Assembly (NCBI GenBank): GCA_003104975.1
Contig: PQAM01000010.1
Span: forward strand, 300,577 to 364,576
Length of the DNA stretch: 64,000 nucleotides
Source of the DNA: Candidatus Methylomirabilota bacterium
Lineage (GTDB): Bacteria; Methylomirabilota; Methylomirabilia; Methylomirabilales; Methylomirabilaceae
Reading direction: 5' to 3'
A model generated the notes under the pieces. The model ran no database searches. It was not told where the DNA came from and worked only from the letters and a program-made list of their open reading frames with translations. How positions within the stretch are numbered: the first letter of the stretch is position 1; every line of letters begins with the position of its first letter. Positions 7,068-16,224 of this stretch are shown piece after piece. The position numbers and the translations under genes were made by a program.

Positions 7068-7307
7068 ATGATGGGTAAGCAGATCACTGTCTACAGTCAA
7101 GCTGGGTGAGGGTCCTGTCACCAGGAGAAAGAGTTTCTTTCTCATAACGGTATCGCCTTCGTGGATAAGAATATTCAGGAAGACCCGGCAGCGCTGGAGG
7201 AGTTGCTGAAGCTCGGCTATCGGGCGACACCCGTCACGGTGATCGATGGCGAAGTCGTTGTCGGTTTCGACCGCGGGAAGCTCGAACGGCTGCTCGGGCT
7301 TAGTTAA
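7068..7307 (+). CDS. Selenocysteine glutaredoxin-like protein (UxxC)
   Basis: Read through one UGA (7107-7109), the frame gives 79 residues of glutaredoxin type: [28 protein letters not shown], then [18 protein letters not shown] and KLERLL. The UGA falls on the first cysteine of the CxxC redox motif (U14-G-S-C17). The cis-proline ATPVTV motif is intact. The ribosome-binding site GAGGAGG is at 7055-7061, with ATGs at 7068 and 7071. A perfect 8-bp hairpin starts 15 nt after the UGA. A simple stop is unlikely because homology continues for 65 codons beyond it. It leads the operon with the zinc-ribbon, MerT- and MerP-like genes and probably reduces metal- or Se-linked disulfides. Confidence 0.88.
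7125..7143 (+). promoter_or_regulatory. Candidate bacterial SECIS hairpin, glutaredoxin-like gene
   Basis: GAGAAAGA (7125-7132) pairs perfectly with TCTTTCTC (7136-7143) around a GTT loop. The loop lies 24 nt after the UGA, inside the window used by bacterial SECIS elements, and carries the G-U bases seen in the E. coli fdhF loop. Confidence 0.65.
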
Positions 7308-7336
7308 GGCTATTGCGGTACGGTCTCGGAGGTGGA

Positions 7337-7621
7337 ATGGTCGAGGTTCATTGTAGCGGATGCGGGCAGGAGATCGAGCTTCCGCCGCAGACGCGCTCAA
7401 GCGACATCATCGCCTGTCCTAACTGAGCGGGCCTCTCGCTCCGGGTGAGCGAGCACAGGGGCAAGTGGTCAGCCGTGGTGCTCAAGACGGCGAGTTGTGC
7501 CGTGGGAGATGAATTGCTTGTGCTTCCCGATGACGTGCAGCCTGGTGACACCATCGAGTGCCACGGGATCACGCAACGGGTGACCTATGCCTACGGCGCT
7601 TATGCGCTGGAGAAGATATGA
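7337..7621 (+). CDS. Zinc-ribbon selenoprotein (fourth ligand Sec)
   Basis: With UGA at 7424-7426 read as Sec this is a 94-residue protein. The N-terminus HCSGCGQEIELP supplies a CxxC knuckle (residues 6 and 9) and IIACPN-U-AG supplies the second knuckle as C27-x2-U30. A beta-rich C-terminal half follows (CAVGDELLVLPDDVQPGDTIECHG). The UGA therefore replaces the last cysteine of a four-ligand zinc ribbon. I do not know a named family for the C-terminal half. GGAGG at 7329-7333 lies close to the ATG at 7337. It sits between the Sec-glutaredoxin and MerT-like genes with small gaps, so it is likely part of the same metal system. Confidence 0.8.
7434..7454 (+). promoter_or_regulatory. Candidate SECIS hairpin, zinc-ribbon gene
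   Basis: CTCGCTC (7435-7441) pairs with GAGCGAG (7447-7453) over 7 bp, leaving the loop CGGGT. The loop begins 16 nt after the UGA. The stem is perfect and lies inside the coding frame. Confidence 0.6.
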
Positions 7622-7624
7622 GGT

Positions 7625-8065
7625 GTGAAAGACATGCGGGTATCGGATGTGAAGTCCGGCTTTTTTGGAATGGCGTCTGCGACGATCGCCTCGCTCTGCT
7701 GTCTCCTGCCGCTTGCGGTTATTGTCCTGGGGCTGGGGAGCGGCGCCTTCATGATGACCACCATGCGGTACCGGGCCATCTTTATCCCAGCGGGGATCAT
7801 CGGGGTGGCCATCGGCTGGACCTTTTACCTTCGTGAGCGCAAGCGCTGCAATGCGCTGAGTTGCAGGATGTCAGGTGGACGATTGAACCTGGCGCTCCTC
7901 CTGCTTGCAACCGTTATTGTAGCCGGAGCCGTTGCACTGGATCAACTCCCGAACTTCACCGCCGACCTGTTGATGCGCGCCACATCCGGCACCTCAGATA
8001 CGACGCCAGCGTCTGTTTCCACCGCCGATCACCCGGTCATGGGACACGAAGGAGATATGAAATGA
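7625..8065 (+). CDS. MerT/MerF-like metal-transport membrane protein
   Basis: This 146-residue integral membrane protein has two N-terminal hydrophobic helices: the first carries ASLCCLLPLAV (about 25), the paired-cysteine feature of MerT/MerF, and the second is FIPAGIIGVAIGWTFYL. A cytoplasmic loop CNALSC (about 75-80) then matches the MerT loop cysteine pair, followed by a third helix and a polar tail. MerT-type proteins take Hg(II) or similar ions from periplasmic MerP into the cell. Start GTG at 7625. The stop overlaps the ATG of the MerP-like selenoprotein (8062), which fits a transporter/binding-protein pair. Its cysteines are ordinary TGC/TGT, unlike its partner's. Confidence 0.8.
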   Translation: MKDMRVSDVKSGFFGMASATIASLCCLLPLAVIVLGLGSGAFMMTTMRYRAIFIPAGIIGVAIGWTFYLRERKRCNALSCRMSGGRLNLALLLLATVIVAGAVALDQLPNFTADLLMRATSGTSDTTPASVSTADHPVMGHEGDMK

Positions 8066-8370
8066 GCACACTGCTTCCGTGTAATCGCCGATCTTTCCTC
8101 GTCTGGGGGCTTGGCGTATCGTTCCTCCTCGTTTTGAGGCAAGGACTGGCCGCAGAAACTGCCGTCGTTCACCTGCGAATTGACGGTATGACGTGAGGGG
8201 CCTGACCCCTCGTGGTCAAGAAGGCCCTGGAAGGGCTGAAGGGCGTTACACGCGCCGAGGTAAGTTTCAAGGACAAGCTCGCGCGCGTGACGTATGAACA
8301 GGGCGCCGTGACCATCGAGCAGATGATCGAGGCGGTAAAGCGCGCGGGTTTTGGGGCGACGCCCCAGTAG
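8062..8370 (+). CDS. MerP-like heavy-metal-associated protein with double Sec (UxxU)
   Basis: Reading UGA at 8194-8196 and 8203-8205 as Sec gives 102 residues. A Tat-like or Sec signal (NRRSFLVWGLGVSFLLVLRQ, about 8-27) precedes a full HMA/MerP domain: AVVHLRIDGMT-U-GA-U-PLVVKKALEGLKGV, then EVSFKDKLARVTYE and MIEAVKRAGFGA. In MerP and HMA domains the GMTCxxC cysteines bind Hg(II), Cu(I) or Zn(II); here both are selenocysteines, U45 and U48. The gene overlaps the MerT-like stop by 4 bases. A periplasmic selenol pair would bind soft metals very tightly. The double exact substitution makes chance stop codons very unlikely. Confidence 0.9.
8203..8237 (+). promoter_or_regulatory. Candidate SECIS hairpins, MerP-like gene
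   Basis: For the first UGA, TGACC (8203-8207) pairs with GGTCA (8214-8218) with loop CCTCGT, 11 nt downstream. For the second, GGCCC (8223-8227, one GU pair) faces GGGCT (8233-8237) with loop TGGAA, 22 nt downstream. Both stems are short (5 bp), so they are weaker than those of the neighbouring genes. Confidence 0.4.
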
Positions 8371-10114: not shown

Positions 10115-10624
10115 CTATGGGACCTCAAACCGCTCAACCTGGGCCCTGTTCTTCTCCTGCGGGATCATCCCGACGATAGCTACGCGCTTGCCGTCCTGCC
10201 CAGTGGCCTTCCGCAGCGCCTCGAGCTGCTCATCGGCCACAAGCGCGATAAGCTGATCCGTTCCCTCGACCTTGAAGAAGGAAGTGCCGTCTCTGGTGGT
10301 GAGCCGGCCTATTGCCTCGAACCGGATCCAGGTCGGTGTAAACCCTGCATCCACAACGAGCTGCCTGAGCCTCTCCACCTCGACTGGCTGGCCTTCCTTC
10401 AGCTTCATTTCTGCCTGCGCCAACTTCAGGCTGACCTTTACCGTGTCCACGCCATCCAGGCGTGTGAGGGCCTTTCGGACCCCATAGGCTCAGGTGGCTC
10501 AGACCATCCCGTCGACACCCATCTGAACCTGCCTGATCTCGGCCAAGGCCAACGCGGGACACGCTAAGGCCAGGACCACAGCCAATCCGATCACAGCGGA
10601 GACCTGCGTTATTCGCTTTCCCAT
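10115..10624 (-). CDS. Periplasmic heavy-metal-associated protein with double Sec (UxxU) and extra C-terminal domain
   Basis: With UGA at 10499-10501 and 10490-10492 read as Sec this is 169 residues. The signal peptide ends in LALACPALALAE. The HMA domain is QVQMGVDGMV-U-AT-U-AYGVRKALTRLDGV (U42, U45), then KVSLKLAQAEMKLKEGQ and LVVDAGFTP. A second region (about 100-169, IRFEAIGRLTTRDGTSFFKVEG... KRVAIVGMIPQEKNRAQVERFEV) looks like a small beta-barrel. It differs from the MerP-like protein at 8062, so UxxU arose or spread more than once. The ribosome-binding site AAGGAGGAG precedes ATG 10624. It is in the merR-P1B ATPase operon and could hand metal to or from the ATPase. Confidence 0.88.
10468..10483 (-). 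promoter_or_regulatory. Candidate SECIS hairpin, UxxU/OB-type gene
   Basis: On the minus strand GGG-(bulged U)-CC pairs with GG-CCC around a GAAA loop. The loop begins 14 nt after the second UGA. A bulged U in the upper stem is also a feature of the E. coli formate dehydrogenase element. The stem is only 5 bp. Confidence 0.4.
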
Positions 10625-10639: not shown

Positions 10640-13093
10640 TTAAGCCTCTACGCTGGAAGACATCTGCGAGTGCTGCCCGACCCCCTTGATGGCCTCGAAG
10701 AAGTAGGCGCCGCGGCCCCACAGGGAATTGATGAAGATCGACGTCACGCTGGCCGCCATGGCCACCATGCCCCAGATGGGGTAGATCAATCCTGTCGCGG
10801 CGGCCGGAATCCCGACACCGTTGAACAGGAAGGCCAGGCAGACGTTTTGCACCATCTTTCGGTAGCTGTACCGGCTGACCTCGTAGGCGTCGAGCACAGC
10901 GCCCAGCCGCTGGTTGAGGATGATCACATCGGCGGATTCGATGGCGATGTCCGCTCCGCTGCCGAAGGCGATGCCGACCTCGGCCTGCATGAGCGCCGGT
11001 GCATCGTTGATGCCGTCGCCCACCATGGCCGTACGACCGCCCTCCTGAAGCGTGCGGATCATCGCCGCCTTCTCGGCCGGTAGCACCCGCGCATGCACGT
11101 CGGCGATGCCGGCGGCGCGGGCGAAATAACGCGCCGCCTCCTCGTTGTCGCCGGTGATCAAGCTTGTTCCGATGCCGAGCGCATGCAGGCGGCGCACCGT
11201 CTCCACTGCGTCGGGCCGCAGACCGTCGCCGAGCGCCAGCAGGCCCGGCAGTTCGTCTCCCCGCGCCACGCCGATCACGGTCAGGCCTTGCGCTTCGATT
11301 GCCTTGATGCGCCGTTCCTGTGGCTGGAGATTGACGGCTTGGCTCGCGAGAAAACCAGGGCTGCCGACCAGCACCCGCGAATGGTTAAGACGCGCCCGGA
11401 CGCCTTGACCCGCCACGGCTTCAAATTCCTGTACCTCCGGTAGCGCGATATGCCGTTTGGTTGCCTCGTCCACCACGGCGCGGGCGAGCGGATGTTCAGA
11501 CCCGACCTCGACGGCTCCAGCCAGCGCCAGCAGTTCGTCTTCCGGGCAGGCCAGTGGAACGATCGTCCGTAACGCAGGACGACCCTCGGTCAGCGTACCC
11601 GTCTTATCGAAGACTACGCGCTGCACGCGTCGCAGGGCTTGAAATGCCTCACCGGTGCGCATCAGCACACCGCGTTCGGCCGCCTGGCCTGCGCCTCGCA
11701 CGATCGACAGCGGCGCCGAGATCCCCACCGCGCAGGGATAGCCCATGACTAGCACACTCAGGCCGGCGAACATCGCCCGACGCAGATCGGGCGCGGCCCC
11801 GACGACCAGCGGGCCGAGCGCCCAGACGAGGGTCGCGCCGGCCGCAGTGAGCAGCACCACCGGGGTGTAGACGCGCAGCACGCGGTCCACAAGGTGCAGC
11901 AGGCCTGGTTTCAGCGCCCGCGCGTCTTCGACACTGCGGATCACCTGTCGGAGGAAACTCTCCTCACCCACAGCCGTCACCCGCACCAGTAACGTGCCGC
12001 GACCGTTGAGGGAACCGCTCACCGTCCGGTCGCCCGGGCGCTTCTCCACGGGGAGCGGCTCGCCGGTGACGAGGGATTCGTCCACATCCGATTCACCCGA
12101 CTCGACCTGACCGTCCACCGGGACCCGCCCGCCCGGCCGAATGCGGACCACGTCCCCGACGCGCACCGCTTCGAGCGGCACTTCTTGCTCCGTACCATCC
12201 TTGACGATAGAGGCCACGTCAGGCTCCAGGTCCAGCAGCTTCTTGACCGCCTGCGAACTGCGGGTTTTCACGATCAGCGATAGCCATTCTGAGAAGATGT
12301 GATAGGCCAGAACCATCACTGCCACTGAGAAAAACGCGGTCGTCGGATAATCCGGCAGGTCGAAGGCCAAGCCGACTACACCGCCGGTCAGTCCTGCGAA
12401 TGCCCCGGCCTCGACGAGCACGTGCTGGTTCAGGATGCCGCGCCGCAGCGCCATGAGGCCCATGTGCGCAATATGCCCGCCCACGCCGAAGATGACGCTC
12501 AGGGCGAGCGCGCCGGCAAGCCACGGCGTGGCGCCGCCGAACGCGCCGCGCAACTGCAGAGCGTACGTACCTGCCCCAAACGCGGCGAGCAAGACCGAGC
12601 CGGCCAGCGCCCACCACGCGCCGTAGCTCCGCAGGACTACGAAGGAAAAGGCCACCATGCTTGCGATGGAAAACGCGCAGAGCGCAAACCACGGGCTGTC
12701 GAGCGGGTACCCGGCCAACCCCATCGCGGTGATGCTCATGGCCAGCGCGGCGAGGAACCGCTCGCGCTCGCGCACCAGCGCCCGCTCTTCTTCCTCAAAC
12801 GCACGCAGCTTGCGCGGATCGGAGATGGTGTAGCCGATCTCCTTAAGCGTCTGCAGCAGCTCCTCGGCCCGCGCACGCGCGGGGTCGTACTCGATCAGTG
12901 CTTGTTCATGGGTCAGGCTCACCGCGACCTTGTCCACGCCGGTCTGCTTGCCCAGTGCCCGCTCGATGGTGCCGGTACACAACGAACAGTGCAGCCCGCC
13001 AATGTGGGCGCGGATTCGCCGCCGGCCTGGTCGTTTCGAAGGCTCGTCGCTCCAAAAGCGCTCGGTAGATTCAATGGTCGTTTCCATGCTCAT
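10640..13093 (-). CDS. P1B-type heavy-metal-transporting ATPase with YPC motif
   Basis: This ATPase of about 817 residues has an N-terminal HMA domain with a normal CxxC (GGLHCSLC, C36/C39) and paired membrane helices. The A-domain carries [10 protein letters not shown]. The phosphorylation site DKTGTLTEG (D496), [10 protein letters not shown] and the hinge [12 protein letters not shown] follow. The intramembrane metal motif, usually CPC or SPC, reads [11 protein letters not shown] (Y452-P-C), so one canonical cysteine is replaced by tyrosine (TAT, not UGA). The substrate is therefore uncertain. GGAGG precedes ATG 13093. It follows merR by 11 bases and is probably induced through that regulator. 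Confidence 0.9.
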
Positions 13094-13104
13094 GTGTGCC
13101 TCCC

Positions 13105-13518
13105 TTACGTATTTCTCCCCTCCGATGCGAGGGCCTCCAGGATCGGGCACTCGCTGGTGGGGCCGCGTCCGCGACAGGCGGCAGCCAACTTCATCAGCGC
13201 CGTCTTCATCTGTTCCAGGTCGCGAACTTTCGCGTCGATATCGGCGACTTTGGCCTCTGCCCGTCTTTTGATGTCCGCGCTCGTTGTCTCGGGTTCGATG
13301 CGCAGAGCGAGCAGATCGCCTATCTCCTTCAACGAGAAGCCCAACTCCTGGGCGCGCCTGATGAACCGGATCCGCTCGACGGCCTCGAGGGGATATTCAC
13401 GATATCCGGATTCGCGTCGGGGCGGTTCGGTCATGAGCCCTCGCCGCTCGTAGTAGCGAATCGTCTCAACATTCACGTGGGCTTGCTTCGCCAACTGCCC
13501 GATCGTCAATGTCTGCAT
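13105..13518 (-). CDS. MerR-family metal-responsive regulator
   Basis: This 137-residue protein has the MerR winged helix (about 3-70: [24 protein letters not shown]), a long coiled-coil dimerisation helix, and a C-terminal metal loop [10 protein letters not shown] followed by PILEAL. The C-x8-C spacing matches Cys117/Cys126 of mercury-type MerR. However, the position of Cys82 (usually GTHCEE) reads ETTSAD, so the third thiolate is missing, which argues against the classical trigonal Hg(II) site. It is transcribed from an operator-promoter of mer type (13541-13572) and leads the operon with the P1B ATPase. Confidence 0.9.
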
Positions 13519-14805: not shown

Positions 14806-16224
14806 TCAGCCAAGACGCATAAGCAATTGAAGGAACCCCTTGAGCGGCCCGCTGGAGAGCTTTTCCCGGTAGTACTGATCAGCCGCCCGGCGCACGCCCT
14901 CGACGAGGGTAGGGTAGGCATGGATGGTCTGTGCAAGTGCGCCGACCGGGAGCCCCTTCCGCATCGCGAGGATTACCTCCTGAATGAGATCACCGGCCTG
15001 AGGGCCCAAGATATGGGCTCCCACGATCTTGCCTTTCGGCGTACACACGAGCTTGGTCAAGCCCATCGCCTCGCCATCACAGAGGGCCCGGTCCAGGTCG
15101 CCAAAGCGATAACGATAGACCTTCACATTTCCGAACTGCTCCCTGGCTTCGGCCTCGGTCAAGCCCACCCTGGCCACCTCGGGATCGGTGAAGGTGCACC
15201 AGGGGACGGCCGAGTAGTCCGCCCTGCTTTTGAAGGGGAACAGCGCATTGCGGACGACCAGACGGGCCTGGTACTCGGCTACATGAGTAAAGAGGAGCTT
15301 CCCCGTGATGTCGCCACAGGCCCAGATGTTCCGAGCGCGGGTCCGTAACGTCTCGTCCACCATGATCCCCTTACTGTTATAGCTCACCCCTGCCGCCTCG
15401 AGGTTCAGTTCCTCCACATTCGGCCGCCTGCCAGTCGCCAGGAAGATCTCCTCGGCCCTGAAGGTCACTGATGCACCTGTGCATTCTCCATGGACTAGTT
15501 TCTCGGTCCCGGATTGCTCCACTCGAAAGGCCTTGGTGCAGGTGTGGATGTCGATCCCCTCGGCCCGCAGGATCGCCTCCAGCGCCTGGGCGACCTCTTG
15601 ATCTTCTCGGGGCAGGATCTGCCCCACCACCTCTAAGACTGTTACCCGGACGCCGAAGCGGGCGAAGAGCTGGGCGAACTCGATCCCGATAGGCCCTGCC
15701 CCCAGGATGACGACCGATCGAGGGAGATGCGAAAGCGTCAATGCGCCGACGTGGTCGAGGAAGCCCACCTCCGCCAGGCCCTCAATCGGAGGCACAGCGG
15801 TCCTTGAGCCGGTGGCGATGACCACCTTCTTGGCGGCAATCGGCTCCCCGCCAACCTTGAGCTCTGTAGGGGAGAGGAAGCTCGCTTGGTCGGAAAAGAG
15901 CGTGACGCCGAGCCCCTTAAATCGCTCCGGGGAGTCGTGCTTTCCTACCTGCGCTTGCACCTGTCGCATCCGGTCCATCACTTTTACAAAATCGAAAGAG
16001 ACCTCGGGCGGATTCAGACCAAAATCGGCTGCCCGGCGCATCAGGTGCAGGACTTTCGCGGAGCGGATCAGGGCCTTGGAGGGGACACAGCCCGTGTGCA
16101 GGCACTCTCCCCCAAGCCGGTCGCGCTCGATGAGGGCGACCTTGGCGCCGAGGGACGCAGCGCCGGCAGACGTCACAAGCCCCGCCGTGCCGCCGCCGAT
16201 CACGGCGAGATCGAAGGTGTCCAT
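14806..16224 (-). CDS. FAD-dependent pyridine nucleotide-disulfide oxidoreductase (MerA-like core)
   Basis: This 472-residue flavoprotein has the N-terminal FAD site VIGGGTAGLVTSAGA (8-22) and the redox-active disulfide GGECLHTGCVPSKAL (C41/C46). An NAD(P) site VVILGAGPIGIEFAQ (about 170-185) and a C-terminal dimerisation domain with IHAYPTLVEG (catalytic histidine region) complete it. It lacks both the N-terminal HMA domain and the C-terminal vicinal cysteines of mercuric reductase, so mercuric reduction is not established; a dihydrolipoamide- or selenide-type disulfide reductase is possible. It overlaps the glycosyltransferase gene (ATGA) and lies near a TVP38 protein, a pairing common in genomes. 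Confidence 0.85.
   Translation of the reverse strand: MDTFDLAVIGGGTAGLVTSAGAASLGAKVALIERDRLGGECLHTGCVPSKALIRSAKVLHLMRRAADFGLNPPEVSFDFVKVMDRMRQVQAQVGKHDSPERFKGLGVTLFSDQASFLSPTELKVGGEPIAAKKVVIATGSRTAVPPIEGLAEVGFLDHVGALTLSHLPRSVVILGAGPIGIEFAQLFARFGVRVTVLEVVGQILPREDQEVAQALEAILRAEGIDIHTCTKAFRVEQSGTEKLVHGECTGASVTFRAEEIFLATGRRPNVEELNLEAAGVSYNSKGIMVDETLRTRARNIWACGDITGKLLFTHVAEYQARLVVRNALFPFKSRADYSAVPWCTFTDPEVARVGLTEAEAREQFGNVKVYRYRFGDLDRALCDGEAMGLTKLVCTPKGKIVGAHILGPQAGDLIQEVILAMRKGLPVGALAQTIHAYPTLVEGVRRAADQYYREKLSSGPLKGFLQLLMRLG

Follow-up and report, generated by a model that had tools for sequence, protein, structure and literature searches.

A MerP-like metal-binding protein with a predicted selenocysteine pair, encoded last in a conserved four-gene cassette of Methylomirabilota

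Small metal-binding proteins in which selenocysteine (Sec, U) replaces cysteine are already on record. The NCBIfam family NF041115 (UxxU_metal_bind) has an HMA fold with two Sec at the CxxC positions. A 2026 review (PMC13188914) enters the family as "metal-binding protein (putative mercuric reductase)", with the motif UxxU and two Sec, and traces it to Zhang and Gladyshev 2007 and an Olavius symbiont. A "putative mercuric reductase" with UxxU also appears in PMC9312934, and a Sec-containing MerP is listed from ocean metagenomes in PMC2398784. MerP itself (TIGR02052; structures 1afi and 1osd) is a small exported HMA protein whose metal site reads GMTxxxx, and its gene is adjacent to that of MerT. 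Two further systems are comparable: NF045683, a MerT/CopZ fusion-like heavy metal transport selenoprotein that unites MerT and an HMA domain, and the SAO (Sec-assisted organometallic) and Tso operons, each of which holds several selenoproteins. Metal or organometal chemistry has been proposed for SAO (PMC13188914).

The gene described here lies in a 64-kb window, the whole stretch of DNA that was analysed (64,000 nucleotides). Its product has the fold and the two Sec of NF041115, which is its best NCBIfam match (1.4e-26; 92.4 bits, with the cut-off at 95; U written as C). As the best match, this makes the kinship clear, while formal assignment is just missed, by 2.6 bits. The same model matches all 17 aligned orthologues, with L018, L020, L022, L033 and L069 scoring 78-92 bits. 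The window protein differs from the family in being stand-alone, exported and encoded behind MerT. It shares size, export, metal site and gene neighbour with MerP, but scores 67.3 bits against a cut-off of 92.55, carries Sec at both ligand positions and a Tat-like signal, and comes from a genome without MerA over the cut-off. Like NF045683, the locus combines MerT with a selenium-bearing HMA domain; however, these are separate genes here, and the score is 37.8 bits versus 375. The cassette resembles the SAO and Tso operons in its several selenoproteins, but its genes are different: a glutaredoxin-like protein with U, a zinc-ribbon protein with U, MerT and MerP(UxxU). Thus, the protein is a well-supported further member of a selenoprotein type catalogued since 2007, not a new discovery. 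The original prediction had called two Sec three residues apart rarely reported, which does not hold in view of the named family and the two-Sec listing in the review. We did not find earlier descriptions of the shared SECIS element, the cassette, the CPNU zinc-ribbon protein or the Tat-like signal, which is weak evidence of novelty.

The reading frame was read directly (Table 1). It starts at ATG 8062, in an ATGA overlap with the MerT stop codon (8063-8065), and ends at TAG 8368-8370. The GMTCxxC motif reads GMT-UGA-GA-UGA-P, with the UGAs exactly at both cysteine positions, and the translation is MSTLLPCNRRSFLVWG...LRIDGMTUGAUPLVVKKALEGLKGV.... The Pfam HMA match is 6.9e-14 (U written as C), and PDB matches include the MerP structures 1osd and 1afi; the HMA fold and the relationship to MerP are clear. 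The original prediction that both thiolates of the motif are UGA while the HMA domain and the signal peptide are intact is borne out. An RRxFL motif is present in the signal peptides of the window gene and eight other UxxU rows of the alignment, all Methylomirabilis-type; the remaining rows are without it, as are most of the Rokubacteria-type forms. The motif suggests that the Methylomirabilis forms are exported already folded by the Tat pathway.

Table 1. Features of the MerP-like gene and its surroundings (window coordinates).
Feature	Position	Strand	Details
Glutaredoxin-like selenoprotein	7071-7308	+	GUGSC; UGA 7107-7109
LysW-like double zinc-ribbon protein	7337-7621	+	UGA 7424-7426 in CPNU
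MerT-like membrane protein	7625-8065	+	CC in first helix; PF02411 4.9e-06, below gathering score
MerP-like HMA selenoprotein (UxxU)	8062-8370	+	102 aa
Twin-arginine-like motif RRSFL, signal peptide	8086-8100	+	residues 9-13
UGA1 (Sec45)	8194-8196	+	invariant in UxxU alignment
UGA2 (Sec48)	8203-8205	+	invariant in UxxU rows; TGC in L067
Predicted bSECIS hairpin	8223-8237	+	GGCCCU-GGA-AGGGCU; loop 8229-8231
Second exported HMA protein (UxxU)	10115-10624	-	UGAs 10499-10501 and 10490-10492
Heavy-metal P1B-type ATPase	10640-13150	-	N-terminal HMA (GLHCSLC); TIGR01525 543 bits
MerR-family metal regulator	13105-13518	-	TIGR02051 (MerR) 145.4 bits, cut-off 150.85
MerA-like FAD disulfide oxidoreductase	14806-16224	-	TIGR02053 405.6 bits, cut-off 454.45

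The MerP-like gene is the last of a four-gene cassette on one strand, preceded by the glutaredoxin-like selenoprotein (UxxC), the zinc-ribbon protein and MerT. This arrangement is conserved, and MerT directly adjoins the MerP-like gene in the cassettes examined. A second copy occurs in the host genome at C6:1-1159 (L140), where its start is cut by the contig end. The CPNU position of the zinc-ribbon protein is U in Methylomirabilis-type genes and in the deltaproteobacterial record L076, and C in Rokubacteria-type genes. This protein apparently represents an uncatalogued selenoprotein family: PMC13188914 names no LysW or zinc-ribbon selenoprotein, and no paper on the CPNU protein was found, again weak evidence of novelty. 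Annotation that takes UGA as a stop would truncate or miss the selenoprotein genes of the cassette, which places several selenoproteins of unassigned role beside a mercury-type transporter.

We favour, with a probability of roughly three in four, the reading that the protein is an exported MerP-type metallochaperone in which both metal ligands are Sec. That it is a double selenoprotein, with Sec in place of both metal-site cysteines, is almost certain from the sequence comparisons below. SelB acting on a single hairpin would decode UGA1 and then UGA2. MerP(UxxU) would be exported, folded in the forms with the Tat-like signal, and its Sec pair would bind a soft metal, for which Hg(II) is the likeliest candidate. 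The metal would then be handed to MerT for import, and from MerT to cytosolic partners such as the glutaredoxin-like UxxC selenoprotein and the zinc-ribbon CPNU protein. A broader proposal, in which one SECIS hairpin programmes both Sec and MerP(UxxU) forms the outermost part of a conserved, selenium-rich relay through MerT, the glutaredoxin-like protein and the zinc ribbon, is speculative and would need to be viewed with some doubt. The MerP(UxxU) genes offer a compact natural test of how ribosomes decode two close Sec codons with one SECIS element, as well as of the benefit of selenium in a metal-binding versus a catalytic site.

Capture of a metal is the likely role of the protein; the identity of the metal is less certain. 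Selenolates bind Hg(II) more tightly than thiolates. Besides Hg(II), the metals bound by HMA domains include Cu(I), Cd(II) and Zn(II). The suggestion in the original prediction that a UxxU site would bind Hg(II) or Cu(I) more tightly and could act as a redox diselenide is reasonable chemistry. Within about 8 kb of the MerP-like gene, on the opposite strand, are a MerR-family regulator, a metal ATPase, a second UxxU HMA protein and a MerA-like flavoprotein. Mercury is plausible as the substrate because of MerT, the MerR-type regulator and a MerB-like selenoprotein elsewhere in the genome, but its specific assignment must be considered tentative, at slightly less than even odds. No MerA over the cut-off was found in the host genome. 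The MerA-like protein of the window ends ...LQLLMRLG and has no C-terminal Cys pair; among the MerA-like proteins, the C-termini read, those of L052, L053 and L055, all end without one. The absence of an above-cut-off MerA and these C-termini argue against a classic mer operon.

A Sec-based metallochaperone for a different soft metal or metalloid, such as Cu(I), Cd(II) or an organometal, is the most serious alternative, although a less probable one than mercury. On this protein, CopZ models come close to MerP in score, and the window also holds an ArsM-like gene besides the ATPase and a regulator on which the CueR and ZntR models score well; the lack of a full MerA among the genome matches is consistent with this alternative as well. 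On the other hand, MerT is next door in the cassettes examined, the MerR model gives the regulator its highest score, and a gene of the MerB family in the genome carries an in-frame UGA. This gene (L151; G000:C7:30-428) has one such codon (AHUPSTNFFC), perhaps at a catalytic Cys position, and an adjacent ArsR-like gene.

It is improbable that the Sec pair serves mainly as a redox site, that is, that this HMA-fold protein is a diselenide/selenol oxidoreductase of the periplasm and no metal carrier. UxxU and UxxC motifs are usual among selenoprotein oxidoreductases (PMC13188914), and the cassette itself includes a UxxC glutaredoxin-like protein. However, the fold is HMA rather than thioredoxin, MerT is a constant direct neighbour, and the GMT motif and the HMA core are conserved across the aligned orthologues, all of which favour the metallochaperone.

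The same two UGAs occupy the same positions in about 20 further Methylomirabilota/Rokubacteria genomes, as well as in four records from Deltaproteobacteria (L069, L076, L081, L120), a recurrence that rules out chance and sequencing error. Orthologues that cease to match beyond a UGA, which the original prediction had named as evidence against it, were not encountered: the match continues past both codons, with 55-94% identity to the window protein beyond the UGAs in 17 aligned rows. The dN/dS ratio against same-genus orthologues is ∼0.11-0.15 (0.034/0.31, 0.098/0.70, 0.163/1.06), evidence of purifying selection past both UGAs. The proposed comparison with CxxC and UxxC orthologues could also be made, since both types exist, UxxC only once (L067; QHVJ01000423.1). 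L067 keeps UGA1 and the downstream hairpin and has TGC at the second site. A tree of 65 columns does not decide between one and several origins of UxxU, but in it the UxxU genes cluster and L067 sits among them, which suggests a Sec-to-Cys change in this gene.

Some records show individual peculiarities. L067 is filed under Acidobacteria, yet groups with Rokubacteria-type genes; the MAG may be mislabelled or the gene transferred. In L019/L061 (Ca. Methylomirabilis isolate NC_groundwater_663), an in-frame 6-nt gap in GMTUGAU removes the first UGA, which is either a real loss or an assembly error. The L039/L082 orthologue reads GMTUPVAUP, with one extra residue between the UGAs.

A candidate bacterial SECIS element (bSECIS) is found downstream of UGA2. 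The bSECIS model in PMC13188914 calls for an upper stem of 4-16 bp; the loop, of 3-9 nt, should have G as its first or second nucleotide and lie 16-37 nt from the UGA. The predicted hairpin has a 6-bp stem and a 3-nt GGA loop, with G first, whose start lies 23 nt downstream of UGA2 and 32 nt downstream of UGA1, the UGAs being 9 nt apart in nearly all genes; it thus agrees with the model in stem, loop G and both distances. Its core, GCCCU-GGA-RGGGC, is present in 21 of the 22 aligned genes and in none of 104 distinct CxxC HMA stretches, being conserved only in UxxU/UxxC genes. Since the stretch encodes ALEGL, conservation of the peptide could be a sufficient explanation; codon choice, the CxxC controls and variation among the pairs argue otherwise. 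The stem codons are nearly fixed (Ala GCC 18/19, Leu CTG 18/19, Gly GGG 19/19), compared to 49%, 44% and 34% in the remainder of these genes. The same ALEGL peptide occurs in the CxxC protein L070, where it is encoded by GCT CTG GAA GGG TTA, which breaks the core. In the stem alignment, 94% of cells pair, and at most 71% do once it is slid. The outer pairs vary, with GC, CG or AU at one and GU or AU at another. Covariation is modest: both sides change in a single pair, the outermost, which is missing in 8 of 22 rows, and the related genomes are not independent. The folding energy of the hairpin is no better than that of shuffled sequences (z -0.62).

A single bSECIS element probably serves both UGAs. 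The simplest reading, given that both distances from the loop lie within the 16-37 nt range, is that the two Sec codons share one hairpin, and L067 agrees with this. Another hairpin, around UGA2 (GAGGGGCCUGACCCCUC), was considered as the SECIS element of UGA1; it folds in the window and in L018 but is lost in most other orthologues, and was rejected. Rfam gave no match at gathering scores in the window, and at a lax threshold its matches in the cassette were no better than chance. Bacterial SECIS elements are too variable for Rfam detection.

The host genome (3.0 Mb, 99.99% complete, 0.42% contamination), which among named genomes is most closely related to Candidatus Methylomirabilota/Methylomirabilis MAGs, encodes complete Sec machinery: SelA (591 bits), SelB (380 bits), SelD (412 bits) and a tRNA-Sec with anticodon UCA. 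SelD (L048; G000:C15:56022-56948) itself contains one in-frame UGA. PMC13188914 also notes 63 predicted selenoproteins in one Methylomirabilota MAG. Decoding of the UGAs as a different amino acid, through a code change or a tRNA-Cys with a UCA anticodon, would suit positions at which the CxxC homologues call for Cys, but is very unlikely, since the recognised UCA tRNA is tRNA-Sec, SelA, SelB and SelD are present, UGA also ends normal genes, and the hairpin is restricted to UxxU/UxxC genes. Termination at UGA in a decayed CxxC MerP gene, or UGAs created by sequencing errors, can be dismissed with near certainty: although UGA does end the neighbouring MerT (8063-8065) and zinc-ribbon (7619-7621) genes, the pair recurs in about 20 genomes, with purifying selection beyond it and the Sec machinery complete.

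When every UGA of the 64-kb window was scanned for codon bias, only the MerP-like gene and the second UxxU HMA gene were flagged. The product of the latter reads GMVUATUAYG and has a C-terminal extension; UxxU is also found in L140 and L141, and the downstream hairpin is CACGCC-UGGAW-GGCGUG.
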